64,000 bases of DNA, from assembly GCA_016190985.1 (NCBI GenBank), contig JACPPI010000018.1, forward strand, positions 1-64,000, written 5' to 3'. Position numbers and translations under genes: made by a program. The stretch comes from Opitutia bacterium. GTDB lineage: Bacteria; Verrucomicrobiota; Verrucomicrobiia; Opitutales; Opitutaceae. The notes below the pieces were generated by a model that was not told the origin of the DNA, searched no databases, and worked only from the letters and a program-made list of their open reading frames with translations. Shown piece by piece: positions 23,643 to 64,000 of this stretch (positions within the stretch are counted from its first letter, which is position 1; each line of letters opens with the position of its first letter).

Positions 23643-23670
23643 TCACGTTGATCAAATCGGGTCAGTCTTT

Positions 23671-23763
23671 TTGCCACGGATCACACAGACAATCACGGAT
23701 TTCAAAGATGAGTGTCGCATCCGGCAGCATACATCCGTGGTAATCCGTGAAATCTGTGGTCAA
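23671..23763 (+). repeat. family A palindromic repeat (CCACGGAT type)
   Basis: The left arm contains TTTTTGCCACGGATCACA and TCACGGATTTC; the right arm is CATCCGTGGTAATCCGTGAAATC and TGTGG. Inverted CACGGAT/ATCCGTG units make a large hairpin. The same arms recur at 51667, 56766, 60872 and 63367. The right end touches the ATG of the next gene. Confidence 0.8.
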
Positions 23764-25044
23764 ATGAATTCCAGTTTCTCCGACATCGGACGCATACGGC
23801 AGCGCGCGATCTATGTGGCCGGCGTCGGCGGCAAGTTGCCGGCGGTGCCGGTGGCGCAGGCCGAGTTGGAAAAGGCCGCGCAGGCGGCGATGTCGCCGGA
23901 GGCCTGGGCCTATGTGGCCGGCGGGGCGGGGCGCGAGTCCACGATCGACGCCAACTGCGCGGCCTTCGAGCGCTGGCGCATCGTGCCGCGCGTGCTGCGC
24001 GACGTCGAACAACGCGATCTGTCGGTCGTGCTGTTCGGCAAGAAGCTTCCGACGCCGCTTTTGCTCGCGCCCATCGGGGTCGCGGAGATGGCTCATGCCG
24101 ATGCCGATCTGGCCGTCGCCCGGGCGGCGGCGCAGTGGGGCGTGCCGCACATTTTCTCCAACCAGGCCTCGGTGCCGATGGAACAGGTGGCCGCGGCGAT
24201 GGGTGACGCGCCCCGTTGGTTTCAGCTCTACTGGAGCCGGTCGAACGAGGTTGTGGCCTCCTTTGTGAAGCGCGCCGAGGCCTGCGGCTGCTCCGCCATC
24301 GTGCTCACGCTCGATACGGCGATGCTCGGCTGGCGCCCGCGCGATCTTGATCTCGGCTCGCTGCCGTTCCTGCAGGGGCAGGGCATCGCCCAATACACCA
24401 GCGATCCCGTTTTCATGCGCGAGGCGCTGGCGGCGGGTGTGGATCCGACGGCGCCAAAGCCACCGCTGAATTTCCAGACCCTCGGCACCGCGCTGGCGCA
24501 GAAGGCGAATTTCCCCGGCGGGCTGGCCAAGAACCTCGCCTCGGCCGCGCCGCGCGCGGCGGTGCAGCGCTTCATCGCCACCTATTCGCGTCCCAACATC
24601 ACGTGGGATGACCTGAAGTTTCTCCGCCAGCATACGAAGCTGCCCATCGTGCTCAAGGGCATCCTGCACGCGGCCGACGCAAAACTCGCACTCGAGCACG
24701 GTATCGACGGACTCATCGTCTCCAACCATGGCGGCCGGCAGATCGACGGCGAGATCGCCTCGCTCGACGCATTGCCGGGCGTCGTGGACGCCGTGGCGGG
24801 CAAGATCCCGGTGCTGTTTGACAGCGGTGTGCGCGGCGGTGTCGACGTGTTCAAGGCCCTCGCCTTCGGCGCGACGGCGGTGTGCCTCGGCCGGCCGTAT
24901 GTCTATGGGCTGGCGATCGCCGGCGAGGCGGGCGTGCGTGAGGTCATCGGCAACGTGCTCGCCGAGTTTGACCTGACGATGGGTCTGGCTGGCTGCGCCA
25001 GCGTGCGCGGTATCAGTCAGGGTGCCCTTTACCGGCAGTCTTAG
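23764..25044 (+). CDS. FMN-dependent alpha-hydroxy acid oxidase, lactate 2-monooxygenase-like
   Basis: TIM-barrel flavoenzyme oxidising L-lactate or a related 2-hydroxy acid. The 426 residues show [36 protein letters not shown] and [28 protein letters not shown] is the long form shared with lactate 2-monooxygenases. [20 protein letters not shown] holds the Lys, and the catalytic His and Arg are in [11 protein letters not shown]. It closes with [19 protein letters not shown]. The ATG directly follows a palindromic repeat. The last 32 bases overlap the convergent unknown gene. Whether product is pyruvate or acetate cannot be told. Confidence 0.9.
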
Positions 25045-35480: not shown

Positions 35481-38060
35481 TCACGTGTGGCGGCCAAGCC
35501 AATTGTGCAGGTCGTTCTCCGTGTCAATCTCGGAGAACATCTGATAATCCGCCGCGAGCAACGCGGCGTAGGTGGGCTCGGCGAAGCGGCGGCAATGGAG
35601 CAGCACCTTGGCTTTCTGCCCGGGCGCGCGCACCAGCCGGCCGAGCGCCTGGTTGACCTTTTGCAGGCCGGGGATCTGGTAGACGCGCCGGAACGACGCC
35701 TCGCGACCGAGTCCGGCGAGGGCATTCATGCGCGCCTTCTGCACGGCATTGACCTCGGGCAGCGCGGGGCCGACGACCATCGCATGCGTCACGCGCCCGC
35801 CGAGCAGGTCGATCCCCTCGGCAAAGCTGCTGCCGAGCACGAGGAAGAGCGCGTCGCTCAGGGCCAGATTTTCCTCGATCCACGCGGTCTGCGCCGCGAG
35901 GTCGGGCAGCTTCGGCTGCAGCGCCACGCGGAGCACCGAGCCGCGATTCTCAAGGGCGCGGAGGATTGCTTCCGCATAGGCGTATGAGGGGAAAAAAACG
36001 GCGATTGCTGAAATGTCGCGAGCAAGCTCGCTCCCACAGGCGGCCCGGTGCAGCGCTTCAACAGTGGCGGCCGTCGTGCCGCAGTGGTTGGCGCGTTCGC
36101 GGAAGGTGGTGCTCACGCGCAAGTCCACCGCGACGTCGTAGGCGCCCGCCCGCCACGGCGTCGGGGCGTGGTGGGTGGAGTAACTCGTGGGAGCGAGCTT
36201 GCTCGCGACAATGGAGGAGTCGCGAGCGAGCTCGCTCCCACAGGATACCAAGCCACAGGAGTCCGCAAACTCCGCATAGGGCTGCAGCGTGGCGGACATC
36301 AGGATCGCGCCGCCAAATTGCTGGAGCGTCTCGCCGATGGCCGGCGCCGCGTCCACGCAGGTGAACTCCAGTTCGCCCTCGCGGGCCACCCACAGGAGCT
36401 TCGTGAGCTTGGCATCGTCGAGGAAATCCACGAGTTGTCCGAACGACCAGAGCGTCTCCGCGTGCTTCGGCCCGAGCGCGGCGTAGTCCAACGGCTGCGT
36501 GCTGACGAGGTTGGCGATCTTCGCAACGAGGTCGTGCACCTCGGCTTCAATCGGCGGGTCCAGCGAGTCGGCGGGTCGCAGCGAGGCCAGCAGGCGCGCC
36601 CATTCCTCTACGGCCAGCACCAGCGTGGCCGGGGCCCGCAGGTGGTCGAGCTCGGCGAGCAGCAGGCGGGCGTCGGTGTCGGTGGCGCGGTGCGAGTGGG
36701 CGCCGGCGACGCGCGAGGGCAGGTTGTGCGCCTCGTCGATGACGAGCAGCGTCTCCGCCGGGTCGAAGCCGGGCTGGTCGTAGAACAGCCCGCGGTTGTC
36801 GGGGGCGAACACGTAGTTGAAGTCGCCGATCCACACGTCGTTGAAGGCCAGCGAGGCGCGGGTGATCTCGTAGGGGCAGATGCGGGCGTCGCGGCCGGCG
36901 GCGCGCAGGGTCTCGAGGTCGCGCGGCTGGGTGTCGTCGAGGTAGAACTTGGCCAGCCCGCTGCCCGGCCAGCGGTCGGCGCAGTCCTTCAGATAGTCGC
37001 AGCCGTCGCGCACGCAGTGGAAGGTGTGGTTGACGCAGTGCTCCGACTTGTTGCGCACCTGCCAGAAGGCAAGCGCTCCGGATAATTTGTAATCCATTAT
37101 ATTACAAATTTCCGGAGACGTCAGCTGAGAGAGCGTGGAGACCACGTGCAGCTGGCCGGTGGACTTGCCGGTCAGCCAGATAAGCCGGGCGAAGCGGCCG
37201 GCGCGCATCTGCCCGAGGGCGAACTCCAGCACGCAGCCGGTCTTGCCGTAGCCGGTGGGGGCTTCGAAGAGGAGAACAGAGGACAGAGAACGCACCGTTG
37301 CCGACTGCTGTCGGCCCGATGTTTGTCCTCGGTTCTCGCTGGGCGAAACCGAGGCAAAGAGGACAGAGGACAGGTCGGTCTGGATTGTCTCCTGTCCCGC
37401 ACGCAGGCTTTGAAAAGCGGGGCGGAACTGCAGCGAGCGGCGGCGCTCGGTGGCGCGGAGCCGGAGGTTGAGGAACTCGACGAGCGCGTCGAGCTGGTGG
37501 TGGACGAGCGCCTCGTCGAATGGCGTGAGGGCGATCGCCTGCGCGAGCCCGGAGCCGGCCTCAACGAAGACAAGCTCCGCGCGGAGGGCGGAGCGGTTGA
37601 GAGCTGCGCCGTTGCTGGCTGCTGCCAGCCCGGTGTCCGTCCCGGCCGTCGCCGGGCGGAAGAGCTGAGAGTTGATGGACGAAGCCCGGACCAGAACGAG
37701 GTAGGCGGCGAGTTGCAGGAAGTAGGGCGGGTAGTCGGCGCGTAGCGCGGGCTCGTCGGCGGGGAGCGGGCGCATGACGCTTTTGATCTCGCGCAGGGTG
37801 TCGCCGACGAGCTGGTCGATGCGGCCGTTGAGCGCGAAGGTCCAGCCGCGGTGCGTGAGCCGGCCGTCGATGACGACCTCGAACTGCGCGCCGGGCGCCT
37901 CGGCGAGCGTGCGCTTCTGCAGCTCGTTGTGCCAATGCTGGCCGAGCTGGGCGCGCCAAAGCCCCTGCGGTCCGCCGCCGGCGTCGTGCGGTCCGAGCGC
38001 GAAGCCCGCGAACTCGCCCACACTCAGGCTGACGGTGCGTGTTTCGAGGGAGAAATGCAT
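35481..38060 (-). CDS. XPD/DinG-type Fe-S helicase with N-terminal PD-(D/E)XK-like domain
   Basis: The 859-residue protein begins with a RecB-type nuclease-like region: HRGWTFALNGRIDQLV, TLREIKSVMRPLP, then YFLQLAAYLVL. A superfamily 2 helicase follows: LRAGQ, Walker A EAPTGYGKTGCVLEFA, four clustered Cys for a 4Fe-4S cluster (SEHCVNHTFHCVRDGCDYLKDC region), DEAH as LLVIDEAHNLPSR, MSATLQPY, GSSFAEGIDLLGG and QALGRLVR. Three stretches look inserted in frame and come from palindromic repeats: near 37270-37385 before Walker A, 36187-36242 after the SAT motif (coding CGSELARDSS), and 36015-36038 (ACGSELARDIS). Its start is one base after the RecO-like gene stop. Likely DNA repair; whether it still works with the inserts is unknown. 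Confidence 0.85.
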   Translation of the reverse strand: MHFSLETRTVSLSVGEFAGFALGPHDAGGGPQGLWRAQLGQHWHNELQKRTLAEAPGAQFEVVIDGRLTHRGWTFALNGRIDQLVGDTLREIKSVMRPLPADEPALRADYPPYFLQLAAYLVLVRASSINSQLFRPATAGTDTGLAAASNGAALNRSALRAELVFVEAGSGLAQAIALTPFDEALVHHQLDALVEFLNLRLRATERRRSLQFRPAFQSLRAGQETIQTDLSSVLFASVSPSENRGQTSGRQQSATVRSLSSVLLFEAPTGYGKTGCVLEFALGQMRAGRFARLIWLTGKSTGQLHVVSTLSQLTSPEICNIMDYKLSGALAFWQVRNKSEHCVNHTFHCVRDGCDYLKDCADRWPGSGLAKFYLDDTQPRDLETLRAAGRDARICPYEITRASLAFNDVWIGDFNYVFAPDNRGLFYDQPGFDPAETLLVIDEAHNLPSRVAGAHSHRATDTDARLLLAELDHLRAPATLVLAVEEWARLLASLRPADSLDPPIEAEVHDLVAKIANLVSTQPLDYAALGPKHAETLWSFGQLVDFLDDAKLTKLLWVAREGELEFTCVDAAPAIGETLQQFGGAILMSATLQPYAEFADSCGLVSCGSELARDSSIVASKLAPTSYSTHHAPTPWRAGAYDVAVDLRVSTTFRERANHCGTTAATVEALHRAACGSELARDISAIAVFFPSYAYAEAILRALENRGSVLRVALQPKLPDLAAQTAWIEENLALSDALFLVLGSSFAEGIDLLGGRVTHAMVVGPALPEVNAVQKARMNALAGLGREASFRRVYQIPGLQKVNQALGRLVRAPGQKAKVLLHCRRFAEPTYAALLAADYQMFSEIDTENDLHNWLGRHT
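36015..36038 (-). repeat. family C REP half-site inside the helicase gene
   Basis: TCGCGAGCAAGCTCGCTCCCAC is a single half of the GTGGGAGCGAGCTTGCTCGCGA repeat, in the coding frame of the helicase gene. Confidence 0.75.
36187..36242 (+). repeat. family C REP palindrome inside the helicase gene
   Basis: GTGGGAGCGAGCTTGCTCGC faces TCGCGAGCGAGCTCGCTCCCAC around ACAATGGAGGAG. It resembles the REP sequences well known in Pseudomonas. It adds about 20 codons without breaking the helicase frame. An intergenic copy is at 41670-41727. Confidence 0.85.
37270..37385 (-). repeat. GAGGACAGAG-type repeat inside the helicase gene
   Basis: Copies of GAGAACAGAGGACAGAGAAC and AGAGGACAGAGGACAGG bracket about 80 bases just before the Walker A motif. 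Related AGAACAGAG or GGAGGACAGG stretches lie at 38714-38735 and 41083-41106. The protein segment is extra relative to related helicases by my reading. Confidence 0.55.
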
Positions 38061-38061
38061 G

Positions 38062-38712
38062 TTAGCCCAGCCGGACCTCGGTCTCGGCATGCACCCAGTC
38101 CTCGAGGCGGCGCGTTATCCTGGCAACCGTGGCAGTGTCGGCGGTCTGGGCGGCGAGCGGCTGGTTGAGGAGGTGGGCGGCGGTGTCGCGGTCGGCGGGG
38201 CTGAACTGCGGCCACCATTGCTGTTTCACGGGGTAACCCTCGTCGCGGAGCAGGGAGTAGAGGGCCTTGAGCCAGACGATGTCGGGCCGGCCGCCGCCGG
38301 CGAGGGCGGCAAACGTGGTGCGCAGCAGGCCGGCGACGGCCTTGCGGGACTCGTCGGGCACGGGATTGCGGCTGAGGAGCGAGCCGAGCGCGGCGGCGGC
38401 GCGGAGGGCGTCGTAGGAGCGGCCGATGCCGTCGTGGCGTTGGATGAGGCGGTGTTCCTTGATGAACCAGGTGCGGCCCTGATTGGAGGATTCGAGCCAG
38501 AGTTCGGTCTCATCGAACAGATCCAGCCAGCCTTCGCTCCGCAGGGCGGAGCTGCGGCGCGCCGGGGCGGGTGGGGTGGCCTTGGCTTTTCTCATGAGAC
38601 AAAGCAGCACGCCCTGCTCGGCGGAAAAGGCGGTCAGCTGCTCGAAGGAGTCGGAGCCCGACGGCTGCCTGGCGAGGACGAACGCCGTGGTCTGGAGCTG
38701 CGGGCCGGGCAT
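38062..38712 (-). CDS. recO: RecO-like DNA repair protein
   Basis: Probable recombination mediator loading RecA. The 216-residue protein shows a RecO-type start (TTAFVLARQPSGSDSFEQLTAFSAEQGVLLCLMR), FDETELWLES and IKEHRLIQRHDGIGRSYDALRAA, which fit the OB-fold and following helices. It is shorter than typical RecO and I see no zinc-binding cysteines. It is one base from the helicase gene, which supports a shared repair role. Confidence 0.7.
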   Translation of the reverse strand: MPGPQLQTTAFVLARQPSGSDSFEQLTAFSAEQGVLLCLMRKAKATPPAPARRSSALRSEGWLDLFDETELWLESSNQGRTWFIKEHRLIQRHDGIGRSYDALRAAAALGSLLSRNPVPDESRKAVAGLLRTTFAALAGGGRPDIVWLKALYSLLRDEGYPVKQQWWPQFSPADRDTAAHLLNQPLAAQTADTATVARITRRLEDWVHAETEVRLG

Positions 38713-39442: not shown

Positions 39443-39503
39443 GAGTGAACAGTGAACCACACCTGAACGCCGACGCCACTGATTTTTTTGCGGGCGGGGA
39501 TGG

Positions 39504-39555
39504 CTGTAGCGGCGGTCTGTGACCGCCGTCCGGCGCTCCTAGAGCGCCGCTACAG
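39504..39555 (+). repeat. family D double-hairpin repeat
   Basis: CTGTAGCGGCGGTCTGTGACCG pairs internally and overall with the opposite end GGCGCTCCTAGAGCGCCGCTACAG. A partial copy (GGCGGTCACAGACCGCCG) is at 58508-58531. Its right end contains the TAG stop of ybeY on the minus strand. Confidence 0.8.
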
Positions 39556-40026: not shown

Positions 40027-40088
40027 GCTGCGCGGAGCGAAGCATCCGGAGGAATCTGACTGGATTCTGCGTTTCACTCAGAATGACA
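40022..40088 (+). repeat. family B palindromic repeat (TCAGAATGACA type)
   Basis: Left arm GTCATGCTGCGCGGAGCGAAGC, right arm TGGATTCTGCGTTTCACTCAG and AATGACA. Other copies are at 50038, 58365 and 63411. The left arm carries the ybeY start codon on the minus strand. Confidence 0.8.
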
Positions 40089-41669: not shown

Positions 41670-41727
41670 TGTGGGAGCGAGCTTGCTCGCGACAATGGGG
41701 GAGTCGCGAGCCAGCTCGCTCCCACAA
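41670..41727 (+). repeat. family C REP palindrome between divergent genes
   Basis: GTGGGAGCGAGCTTGCTCGC and TCGCGAGCCAGCTCGCTCCCAC surround GACAATGGGGGAG. Nearly identical to the copy inside the helicase gene at 36187-36242. Confidence 0.85.
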
Positions 41728-55342: not shown

Positions 55343-56767
55343 ATGCGGATCTACTTCATGGGCATAGGCGGGACGGCGATGGGCAACGCCGCGTTGCTGG
55401 CGCGCGCCGCCGGCCATGAAGTGCTGGGCGCGGACACCGGCGTCTATCCGCCCATGAGCACCGTGCTGGCGGCGGCGGGCATCGCGCTCCACGAGGGCTA
55501 CGATCCGGCGCGCCTCGAAAAACTTGCTCCCGACCTCGTGGTGGTCGGCAACGCCATGTCGCGCGGCAACCCCGAGGTCGAGTGGCTGCTCGACACCCGC
55601 GCGATACCCTTCACCTCGCTGCCGGCCTTCCTCTCCGACGCCGTCCTCGCGGTGCGCAAGAACATCGTCATCGCCGGCACCCACGGCAAGACGACCACGA
55701 CGGCGCTGACGGCCTTCCTGTTGCGCGAGAACGGCCGCGACCCCGGCTTCCTGATCGGCGGCGTGCCGCTCGATCCGCCGGCCGGCAGCCATCTCGGCAC
55801 GCTCGGCGACCCGTTTGTCATCGAGGGCGACGAATACGACAGCGCCTTCTTCGACAAGCGCAGCAAGTTCATCCACTACGTCCCGCACATCGCGGTGCTC
55901 AACAACCTCGAGTTCGACCACGCCGACATCTTCCGCGACCTGGCGGATGTGCAGCGGACGTTTTTCCACCTGACCCGCATCGTGCCGCGCAACGGCTGGA
56001 TCGTGCTCAACGGCGACGACGACAACCTCCGTGCCCTCGGGCCGCTGGCGTGGACGCGGGTCGTCCGCGTCGGCACGGGCGAGAGCAACGACCTCCACGT
56101 CGCCGGGTTTCGCGAGACGCCGGACAGCGCGTCATTCCGGCTGGTGTGGCAGGGCAAACCCTGGACTGAGGTCCGGTGGGCGCAGCCGGGCCTGTTCAAC
56201 GCCCGCAACGCCGCCATGGCGGCGCTCGCGGCCGGCCTCGCGCTTTTCCCCGACAACCCGAGCAAGCTGAAGCTGGACGCGCTGGCGAAATTCCGCGGCG
56301 TGAAGCGCCGCCAGGAGCTGCTGGTCAACACGCCGAAGCTCAAGGTCGTCGAGGATTTCGGCCACCATCCGACGGCGCTGGCGGAGACGCTGCAGTCGTT
56401 CCGCGCGCGCTTCCCGGGTCACATCATCCACGCGGCCTTCGAGCCGCGCAGCAACACCTCGCGGACGAAGGTGCTGCAGGCGGCCTTCATGCGCGCGCTG
56501 GCGCTGGCCGATGTCGTCTATCTCGGCGCCGTGGCGCGGCCGGAAAAGCTGAAGCCCGAGGAGCGTTTCGACGTGGAGGCGGTCATCCAGCATTTGGAGA
56601 CGCAGGGTGTGGACGGCTACACGGCGCCGACGCATGCGGCGTTGCTGGAAATCATCGCGGAGAACACGGCGGAGGAGACGGAGCGCCCGCAGCTCGTCGT
56701 CTTCTTCACCAACGGCTCCTTCGACGGGATCATCGGGAAGTTTGTCCAGGCGAATAGCAAGGTTTAG
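55343..56767 (+). CDS. mpl: UDP-MurNAc:L-Ala-gamma-D-Glu-meso-DAP ligase (Mpl)
   Basis: Peptidoglycan recycling ligase that joins recovered tripeptide to UDP-MurNAc. The 474 residues show YFMGIGGTAMGNAALLARAAGHEV, the ATP loop VIAGTHGKTTTTALTAFLL, IEGDEYDSAFFDKRSKF (the EYD segment distinguishes Mpl from MurC), LNNLEFDHADIF, VVEDFGHHPTALAETL and AAFEPRSNTSR. The stop TAG is the first codon of a family A repeat. It implies that this organism recycles its cell wall. Confidence 0.93.
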   Translation: MRIYFMGIGGTAMGNAALLARAAGHEVLGADTGVYPPMSTVLAAAGIALHEGYDPARLEKLAPDLVVVGNAMSRGNPEVEWLLDTRAIPFTSLPAFLSDAVLAVRKNIVIAGTHGKTTTTALTAFLLRENGRDPGFLIGGVPLDPPAGSHLGTLGDPFVIEGDEYDSAFFDKRSKFIHYVPHIAVLNNLEFDHADIFRDLADVQRTFFHLTRIVPRNGWIVLNGDDDNLRALGPLAWTRVVRVGTGESNDLHVAGFRETPDSASFRLVWQGKPWTEVRWAQPGLFNARNAAMAALAAGLALFPDNPSKLKLDALAKFRGVKRRQELLVNTPKLKVVEDFGHHPTALAETLQSFRARFPGHIIHAAFEPRSNTSRTKVLQAAFMRALALADVVYLGAVARPEKLKPEERFDVEAVIQHLETQGVDGYTAPTHAALLEIIAENTAEETERPQLVVFFTNGSFDGIIGKFVQANSKV

Positions 56768-56905
56768 CCACGGATGACACCGATGGGCACGGATCTGCGA
56801 TAGTGCTGCTTCGCTTCAGCCTTCGCCAAGGCTACGGCTGACGAGCCGTTCAGAAGGACAAGACAGGTAGATGGTCTTATCCGTGACCATCCGTCAAATC
56901 AGTGG
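56766..56905 (+). repeat. family A palindromic repeat with internal extra palindrome
   Basis: Left arm TAGCCACGGATGACACCGAT, GGGCACGGATC; right arm TTATCCGTGACCATCCGTCA, AATCAGTGGC. The loop contains CAGCCTTCGCCAAGGCTACG, GCTG, itself a separate palindromic repeat type. Confidence 0.75.
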
Positions 56906-56914
56906 CGAAAAAAC

Positions 56915-58507: not shown

Positions 58508-58531
58508 ACGGCGGTCACAGACCGCCGCTGC
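58508..58531 (+). repeat. family D hairpin, partial copy
   Basis: ACGGCGGTCACAGACCGCCG matches half of the 39504-39555 repeat in inverse orientation. It lies downstream of the 33-residue basic protein gene. Confidence 0.65.
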
Positions 58532-58555
58532 AGCTCGAAGGCGGACGCAGCCGGG

Positions 58556-58753: not shown

Positions 58754-58807
58754 GTAGTCTGTTAAACTACTTCTGTCGTCCTAAGCGTTGGTAGTTTAAT
58801 AGACTAC
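58754..58807 (+). repeat. inverted pair GTAGTCTGTTAAACTAC / GTAGTTTAATAGACTAC
   Basis: Two 17-base units in opposite orientation differ at one position and are 20 bases apart; each is itself nearly palindromic. They lie between the rhodanese gene and the small basic protein gene, both on the minus strand. Operator or terminator; undecided. Confidence 0.75.
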
Positions 58808-60858: not shown

Positions 60859-60871
60859 CCGATGCTTTTGG

Positions 60872-60947
60872 CCACGGATTACTCGGATGGACACGGATGA
60901 AGAAGGAATCTATCCGTGATAGTCCGTGAAATCCGTGGTGAAAGAAA
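60872..60947 (+). repeat. family A palindromic repeat providing the truA start
   Basis: TTTTGGCCACGGATTACTCG, GATGGACACGGAT in the left arm; ATCCGTGATAGTCCGTGAAA, TCCGTGGTGAAAGAA in the right. The right arm contains the three GTG codons available for truA. Confidence 0.85.
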
Positions 60948-63353: not shown

Positions 63354-63366
63354 GAAAGTCCTGGCT

Positions 63367-63540
63367 TTTGGCCACGGATGGCACGGGCTGACACGGATCA
63401 TTTGCCGTGACCTGTCATCCTCAGCGCCGCGAAGGATCCAGAATGACTCCCGCGAACGCATATCATGCTGGATTCTTCGCGGGGCTGAGAATGACAATCA
63501 ACGGATATTTCCTCCCCATCCGTGAAATCCGTGGCTAAAG
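63367..63540 (+). repeat. family A repeat interrupted by a nested family B repeat; provides the folC start
   Basis: Left A arm TTTTGGCCACGGATGGCACG, GACACGGAT and right A arm CCATCCGTGAAATCCGTGGC, TAAA flank a complete B element (about 63411-63498: TGTCATCCTCAGCGCCGCGA, AGGATCC to GGATTCTTCGCGGGGCTGAG, AATGACA). Confidence 0.85.
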
Positions 63541-64000
63541 AAATATCCGATTACACCGCGGTCACCGCATACCTGTATTCCCTCAAGGCGGGCGGGGTGA
63601 AATTCGGCATCGACCGGATGCGGCGCCTCGCCGCCGCCCTCGGGCATCCCGAGCGCAGCTATCCGGTGATCCATGTCGCCGGCACCAACGGCAAGGGCTC
63701 GGTCTCGGCCATGCTTGACGCCATCCTGCGCGCCGCCGGCTGGCGCACCGGGCTCTACACCTCGCCGCACCTGGTGAAGCTCGGCGAGCGCGTCCAGGTG
63801 GACCGCCGCCTGCTCACCGAGGCGGAGATCGCGGCCTACGTGCACGAGCTCCGGCCGCTCGCGGCGCAGGCCGCCGCCGGCGCGGCCGATGAGCACGCGA
63901 CTTTCTTTGAGTTCATGACGGCGATGGCGTTCCTGCAATTCCAGCGGCAGCAGGTCGACATCGCCATCGTCGAGGTCGGCCTGGGCGGCCGACTCGACGC
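63522..64000 (+). CDS. folC: folylpolyglutamate synthase/dihydrofolate synthase, 5' part
   Basis: Adds glutamate to folates. The readable part shows YLYSLKAGGVKFGIDRMRRLAAALG, the ATP loop HVAGTNGKGSVSAMLDAIL, GLYTSPHLVKLGERVQVD, then FFEFMTAMAFLQFQ and VEVGLGGRLD. It runs off the right edge. A TGA at 63492 closes the frame and the only usual start codons before the homology are GTG 63522 and GTG 63531, both in the right arm of the family A repeat. Confidence 0.92.
   Translation, partial: MKSVAKEISDYTAVTAYLYSLKAGGVKFGIDRMRRLAAALGHPERSYPVIHVAGTNGKGSVSAMLDAILRAAGWRTGLYTSPHLVKLGERVQVDRRLLTEAEIAAYVHELRPLAAQAAAGAADEHATFFEFMTAMAFLQFQRQQVDIAIVEVGLGGRLD

Follow-up and report, generated by a model that had tools for sequence, protein, structure and literature searches.

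Small hairpin repeats inserted in frame in an XPD/DinG-type helicase gene of Opitutaceae

The window, a 64,000-nt stretch of contig JACPPI010000018.1 from an Opitutia bacterium, contains an XPD/DinG-type helicase gene carrying five in-frame repeat inserts (S1–S5), each of them largely repeat DNA. They include repetitive extragenic palindromic (REP) sequences, a palindrome of another family and a structured repeat that we term the two-hairpin element. We observed in-frame copies of these repeats, their dispersal, their recurrence at the same sites of the gene and purifying selection on the gene itself. Judged from the sequences, it is very probable that the gene is functional, that several families of small hairpin DNA landed in it over a long time, and that the frame-keeping copies between secondary-structure elements survived.

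Five inserts in a conserved helicase

No stop interrupts the helicase frame between an ATG at 38090 and the stop codon at 35481; the start at 38060, common to the orthologues, lies within this span. A first-pass annotation of the window had described this frame as running without a stop through a REP palindrome, a REP half-site and a GAGGACAGAG-type block at 37270–37385, and it does so. All three of the insertions claimed there are present, but the count fell short of five, as the two-hairpin copy in S1 (37606–37660) and the palindrome in S3 (about 37078–37115) had been missed. The REP copies (dimer 36187–36241, half-site 36015–36037) are exact or one-mismatch copies of a 23-mer. The block is indeed a repeat, and its identity can be refined to a 67-nt two-hairpin element (37292–37358) among GTCCTCT heptamers. 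The features are as follows (L numbers denote loci and G numbers genomes; E, expect value; L020–L023 are the four most distant aligned orthologues).

35481–38060, minus strand: XPD/DinG-type helicase gene, stop included (coding 35484–38060; 859 amino acids)
37581–37688, minus strand: site S1, apparent variable loop, amino acids 125–160; 36 residues against 11–12 in L020–L023
37606–37660, minus strand: two-hairpin copy in S1; covariance model R1, 78.8 bits, E 6.8e-14; fold z -5.1
37275–37367, minus strand: site S2, just before Walker A, amino acids 232–262; 31 residues against 8
37292–37358, minus strand: 67-nt two-hairpin copy in S2, with GTCCTCT heptamers on its flanks; fold z -6.2
37065–37121, minus strand: site S3, amino acids 314–332; 19 residues against 7–9
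37078–37115, minus strand: 38-nt palindrome in S3, peptide EICNIMDYKL; fold z -2.6
36159–36251, minus strand: site S4, after the SAT motif, amino acids 604–634; 31 residues against 13–15
36187–36241, minus strand: REP dimer in S4; 41/42 arm bases match the consensus; fold z -10.1
36003–36041, minus strand: site S5, amino acids 674–686; 13 residues against 5–6
36015–36037, minus strand: REP half-site in S5, exact match, peptide CGSELARD

The window protein is longer than L020–L023 at all five sites. Earlier statements that one insert precedes Walker A (S2) and one follows SAT (S4), that relatives have little sequence there (8 residues at S2, 13–15 at S4 and 5–6 at S5, against 31, 31 and 13), and that two inserts (S4 and S5, both REPs) encode the same peptide, CGSELARD, all proved correct. 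The S1 two-hairpin copy was one of 11 used to build covariance model R1; the S2 copy lay outside the training set and was matched over 37292–37347 (E 2.4e-7). The S3 palindrome recurs at 16 other places in the genome at E < 0.001, and its 17-nt core pattern has 32 genome sites versus none for the reversed control. Another palindrome of the window, GTAGTTTAATAGACTAC at 58791–58807, is one mismatch from this 17-nt pattern and belongs to another subfamily.

Pfam DEAD_2 and Helicase_C_2 domains assign the protein to the XPD/DinG group, and NCBIfam rad3/DinG models matched it with scores below the cut-off. Helicase matches were found in 30 of 38 genomes, its own included. Named orthologues came from metagenome-assembled genomes titled Lacunisphaera, Opitutus, Candidatus Didemnitutus, Opitutaceae, Opitutia and Verrucomicrobia, and we infer that the host is a Lacunisphaera-like member of the Opitutaceae. 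A profile of the helicase and its orthologues aligned with the solved XPD-like proteins 9kqh, 4a15 and 6fwr. The XPD/Rad3-DinG protein 9kqh was alignable over about 600 positions, but with gaps at S2, S3 and S4, where the helicase has its inserts. In a low-confidence AlphaFold2 model (mean predicted local distance difference test, pLDDT, 45), S1, S2, S3 and S5 each connected a helix to the following strand, and S4 connected two helices. The five inserts thus sit in places that look like loops. The N-terminal part of the protein carries motifs, LREIKS and QLAAY, that were spotted by eye and that we take to be PD-(D/E)XK nuclease-like; no Pfam match to a PD-(D/E)XK profile was found for this part.

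The core of the gene is under purifying selection. Ratios of nonsynonymous to synonymous substitution rates (dN/dS) between the window gene and the genus rows ranged from 0.135 (L003) to 0.244 (L012), with 0.347 against L108, ten pairs in all; seven other orthologue pairs gave 0.037–0.194. Of 30 orthologue loci, some covering only part of the gene, 29 had no stop in the frame; the exception, with one stop, was the distant row L026. The residues of Walker A, DEAH and SAT were unchanged in 13/13 rows. Low core dN/dS and stop-free frames at all but one of the loci show, as far as sequence can, that the gene is not decaying. The first-pass annotation had offered decay as one explanation; in that case the inserts would be tolerated because the helicase is no longer needed. 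Five inserts in one gene and its hypervariable loops would fit decay, but the selection data just given speak against it, as do the REP inserts in Mfd, PdxA and UvrA, and we consider it highly improbable.

Repeat families within and beyond the gene

The REP 23-mer had 123 half-sites in the genome (G000), versus 0 for the reversed pattern. Among the 100 of them that were listed, half-sites often formed opposite-strand pairs, that is, inverted dimers of short palindromes. They start with GTGG, a variant of the GTAG tag that characterises the GTAG superfamily. At L058, a 174-residue open reading frame (ORF; 1587–2111) lies over a Y1_Tnp match (E 1.1e-7) with REP pairs on both sides, which associates the family with a REP-associated tyrosine transposase (RAYT). 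The transposase ORF and its flanking REP pairs (L058:1501–2212) make up a likely REPtron.

The 100 listed half-sites merged into 66 places, of which three at contig ends were left out; the 64 places analysed include a few from other loci. Fourteen were in frame within genes, 26 had no confident gene on either side, 21 had a gene on one side only and three lay between divergent genes. There was no phase shift at a REP in any of the 64. Among random 60-nt spans of the window, 2028/3000 were in frame, versus 14/64 for REPs; this deficit of in-frame REPs within genes is what one would expect of mobile DNA that is tolerated and sifted by selection. The hosts of in-frame REPs were UvrA (two), Mfd, PdxA, aldehyde dehydrogenase, an MFS transporter, QueG, sulfatase, CbiX, lipoate ligase, two glycosyltransferases and, twice, the helicase. 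In five of ten host proteins (L038, L043, L054, L138 and L152), a single Pfam match above its cut-off ran across the REP insert. In-frame insertion into unrelated conserved genes was therefore found for this family. The S3 palindrome was in frame in 2/14 places, once in the helicase and once in a P-type ATPase, where it encodes almost identical peptides; this shared frame is forced, because only one frame per strand is open in the palindrome. A codon-usage gene caller could not separate the strands and was replaced by a dicodon model, which ranked the true frame first in 38/38 helicase and 13/13 PIN-gene segments, the window being part of its training. The earlier suggestion that the repeats act as linker donors holds insofar as they fill loops or linkers in frame, in the helicase and, for REP, in 12 other genes of this genome; being a donor does not mean having evolved for that purpose.

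The two-hairpin element has the consensus TTTGCC-stem-GGACAAA followed by CACCGGG-stem-CAACGGTG. In 11 short copies, 97% of cells were paired and changes on both sides occurred in 12/21 pairs. None of 500 shuffles did as well as the real copies on four of five measures; 84 did so on the fifth, the number of further pair types. Conservation lies in the linkers and much of the hairpin sequence, and the upper stems vary and covary, so that the element lacks the conserved palindromic stem of a REP. The covariance model found it in 20 of 21 genus genomes, with 1 to 68 matches each, and in none of 17 genomes from outside the genus, with 150 candidates scored per genome. Rfam gave 0 gathering matches in the window, and over the helicase only two weak ones (E 1.6 and 4.9), away from the two-hairpin copies. 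With regard to a possible origin as a miniature inverted-repeat transposable element (MITE) of IS200/IS605 type, G000 has 7 Y1_Tnp matches, and none of the two-hairpin copies listed lies within 3 kb of one. A loose motif scan yielded 827 matches, mostly chance, and was replaced by one requiring the stem, with 30 matches (a few still chance) versus 2 in the reversed control.

Two-hairpin copies were in frame within genes at 9/24 places in this genome, and three reading frames of the element are in use. All but one of 16 in-frame copies, of which nine are from this genome and seven from the helicases of other species, are oriented in the gene sense (binomial p 0.0005); some of them may share descent. 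Stops do not explain this bias, because 65/72 sense and 63/72 antisense frames of the 24 copies are open. By eye, copies at L068, L120, L123 and S5 of L015 were nested within others, lying in a hairpin loop of the outer copy or between its two hairpins, with seemingly three copies within one another at L123. Such nesting argues for mobility. The S2 copies of L001 and L006 were identical at 64/67 positions by eye, and their 40-codon flanks at 198/240, a pattern like that described below for REP arms.

In other species of the genus, S1–S5 were filled by 7-nt tandem repeats, REPs, two-hairpin copies, palindromes with other arms and further palindromic types. A repeat label was assigned at at least one site in 14 of 18 genus rows, and at none in L010, L011, L012 and the partial L019; several species had no hairpin insert at a given site. 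The covariance model detected nine two-hairpin copies in the helicase orthologues of six species, among 28 sources: two each in the window gene, L006 and L015, and one each in L007 (a copy also in the model's training set), L013 and L018. Two matches at E 0.27 and 0.59 were left out of this count, and a strong match in L008 falls outside the helicase gene. THE(anti) labels of L021 and L025 came from a loose regular expression and were not counted; L025 had no covariance-model match. Carriers of each filler type were scattered over the gene tree. Rows L026, L028, L029 and L030 were dropped from the alignments as distant or partial, and the tree also omitted six duplicates (L099, L100, L101, L105, L107 and L109) and the partial L019. 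The first-pass annotation had held that non-repeat sequence of equal length in orthologues would refute its claim; this applies in part, as sequence of similar length that is not REP occupies S4 in L004, L007, L010 and L011.

Some fillers have features of their own. The position taken by a REP in other species is occupied, at S4 of L003, L004, L009 and L108 and in the Mfd loop of L180, by a further palindromic repeat of the type GGTAGGGCG...CGCCCTACC, sometimes in variant form. S4 of L007, L013 and L019 holds a structured-looking filler that starts with GAGGTGGAACC and contains overlapping inverted repeats. Seven-base tandem repeats of differing sequence (GTCCTCT, TCAGGTC and ATCAAAA types) occupy S1, S2 and S5 in many rows; three units make 21 bases, which would keep the frame.

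Conserved arms in embedded REPs, and competing explanations

Seven orthologues carry a REP at S4. Five match the consensus at 41–42 of 42 arm bases, and those of L008 and L102 have decayed to 29 and 33/42; the background maximum was 27/42 over 1544 windows. All seven share one frame and one arm spacing (9-nt spacer, 7/7). Among the five well-matched copies, the mean difference was 2.9% in the arms and 62% in the 9-nt spacers. Fourfold-degenerate columns with a conserved residue were invariant in 7/8 arm cases versus 60/194 in the core (p 0.002), and the arm codons kept include GCT and, in four of the five, CTT, which are rare in these genes (6.2% of Ala and 4.7% of Leu codons). The Mfd loop, which is variable too, held a REP in 5 of the 19 rows covering it, with a 12-nt spacer in 5/5. 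PdxA had one in 2/16 genomes, both with a 9-nt spacer; 12 had a short turn and two another filler. Arm mismatches, counted independently of strand, fell as the REP number of the genome rose (rho -0.85, p 1.3e-4, n=14 copies; 9 genomes, not independent), and the genome of L102 had no REP half-site within 3 mismatches. Arms so uniform beside diverging spacers suggest that embedded REPs are renewed where they sit, whether through gene conversion or because fresh copies land in the earlier one.

Under the explanation we favour for the gene as a whole, REPs, two-hairpin elements, palindromes and heptamer repeats would land in the helicase over a long time, and in-frame copies between secondary-structure elements would survive, so that peptides derived from repeats come to occupy the same few loops in many species of the genus. 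REPs would be moved by the REP-associated Y1 transposase, a REP-flanked one being present, and the two-hairpin element by some mobiliser; the inserts would be nearly neutral for the protein, and REP arms would be renewed where they sit. More tentatively, and at somewhat less than an even chance, we propose both that embedded REPs are rewritten from the REP pool of the genome, through gene conversion or repeated targeting, and that the two-hairpin element is a hitherto undescribed kind of tiny mobile DNA, confined to this genus, whose recognition depends on shape instead of stem sequence and which inserts into hairpin loops, its own included.

The closest competitor to renewal is a hot spot at which REPs inserted independently several times, with no rewriting of an old copy. 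This has a real chance of being correct, though one that we would not back: near-perfect arms with divergent spacers suit it, as does the patchy distribution, yet all seven S4 copies, the decayed ones of L008 and L102 included, use one frame, when the dimer of the window could be read through in any of the six. The single spacer length at each locus (helicase 9, Mfd 12 and PdxA 9 nt) likewise contrasts with the 24 to 76 bases between neighbouring half-sites among those listed. Selection on the transcript offers a different account of the conserved arms, with in-gene repeats acting as mRNA hairpins in pausing or stability. The good folds (z values as listed above, from -2.6 for the S3 palindrome to -10.1 for the REP dimer) and the gene-sense orientation of 15/16 in-frame two-hairpin copies, with both strands about equally open, point that way; REP arms, however, hold the consensus letters without compensatory drift, their mismatches track genome REP number, and several species do without a hairpin at a given site. 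We judge this account improbable. Slightly more doubtful still is the idea that the repeats were selected as linkers, adding flexibility or partner binding to the helicase. The same loops are filled in many species, and Di Nocera et al. (2013, PMC3733652) note many REP-bearing genes of DNA synthesis and repair, but the sites hold unrelated filler peptides or short turns in different species, the two-hairpin element is used in three frames, and in-frame positions within genes are less common for REPs than for random spans.

Several points weigh against our own interpretation. The seven S4 carriers require seven changes on the gene tree, so that parsimony alone favours repeated insertion over one insertion followed by many losses, and G015 and G007, two genomes rich in REPs (76 and 96 half-sites), lack one at S4. 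The 14 REP copies behind the mismatch trend come from 9 genomes and from three genes chosen out of 13 with an in-frame REP. The random-span baseline was drawn from the window only, and the absence of the two-hairpin element outside the genus, resting on the 150 candidates scored per genome, is not absolute. As the structural model is poor, loop placement rests on alignment gaps, the model's weak secondary structure and one solved homologue.

Further features of the window and relation to known systems

Two further features of the window were recorded.

38062–38712, minus strand: upstream ORF of 216 amino acids, its stop ending one base before the helicase ATG at 38060
41671–41725, no strand assigned: further REP dimer, bordered on just one side by a confident reading frame

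The upstream ORF matched no family in Pfam or NCBIfam; coupling between it and the helicase is possible. Elsewhere in the window, a four-copy repeat around GGATTCTTCGC...CTCAGAATGACA (family D2) occurs at 40049, 50087, 58412 and 63457. Paired short repeats, CCACGGAT...CACGGAT and TCCGTGAAATCCGTGG (families D3 and D4), lie near each other at 23666–23768, 56760–56914, 60864–60947 and 63364–63543. GC-rich 27-mers at 39503–39529 and 58508–58534 form an inverted pair with 96% complementarity.

In-frame REPs in Opitutaceae have already been published (PMC3733652), so the REP inserts of the helicase are of a known kind. According to that paper, Opitutus terrae has the most intragenic GTAG REPs, including those in both uvrA genes, DNA ligase and RNA helicases, most of its GTAG-20 copies are tagged GTGG, REP inserts in loops may be neutral, and two Xanthomonas species carry different REPs at about the same recB site. 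The O. terrae REPs resemble ours in bacterial family, in lying within many genes including uvrA and in their GTGG tag, and a helicase of this kind may already be in that paper's gene list. The REPs treated there are of the GTAG and CGTC kinds, whereas here a single gene holds members of two more repeat families, and comparison of orthologues within a genus reveals site turnover and conserved REP arms. Rickettsia palindromic elements (Ogata et al. 2000, via the review PMC10969869) are likewise palindromic repeats in frame in unrelated proteins; as described there they are about 150 bp long, against about 23–72 nt and several unrelated families here. The systems pairing REP doublets forming hairpins (REPINs) with RAYTs (PMC3116915) share the inverted REP pairs and the Y1 transposase gene flanked by REPs, but that work sought REPs in extragenic space.

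Literature searches with the element sequences, in open-licence texts, returned matches only in unrelated subjects, which we took as primer coincidences, and no report of the two-hairpin element or the renewal pattern was found in that literature. As far as we found, the two-hairpin element with its covarying stems is new, as are orthologous gene-embedded REPs with near-identical arms and diverging spacers and synonymous sites.

It has long been asked whether gene conversion is how REPs evolve; Higgins et al. reportedly raised the question in a title in 1988. Inside a gene, the fixed frame, spacer and coding flanks of a REP serve as a clock and an address label, which makes the question directly testable on close strains. 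A structured repeat, without an Rfam match in the window and the gene, has been described, and the loops of a single enzyme record the landings of several repeat families.

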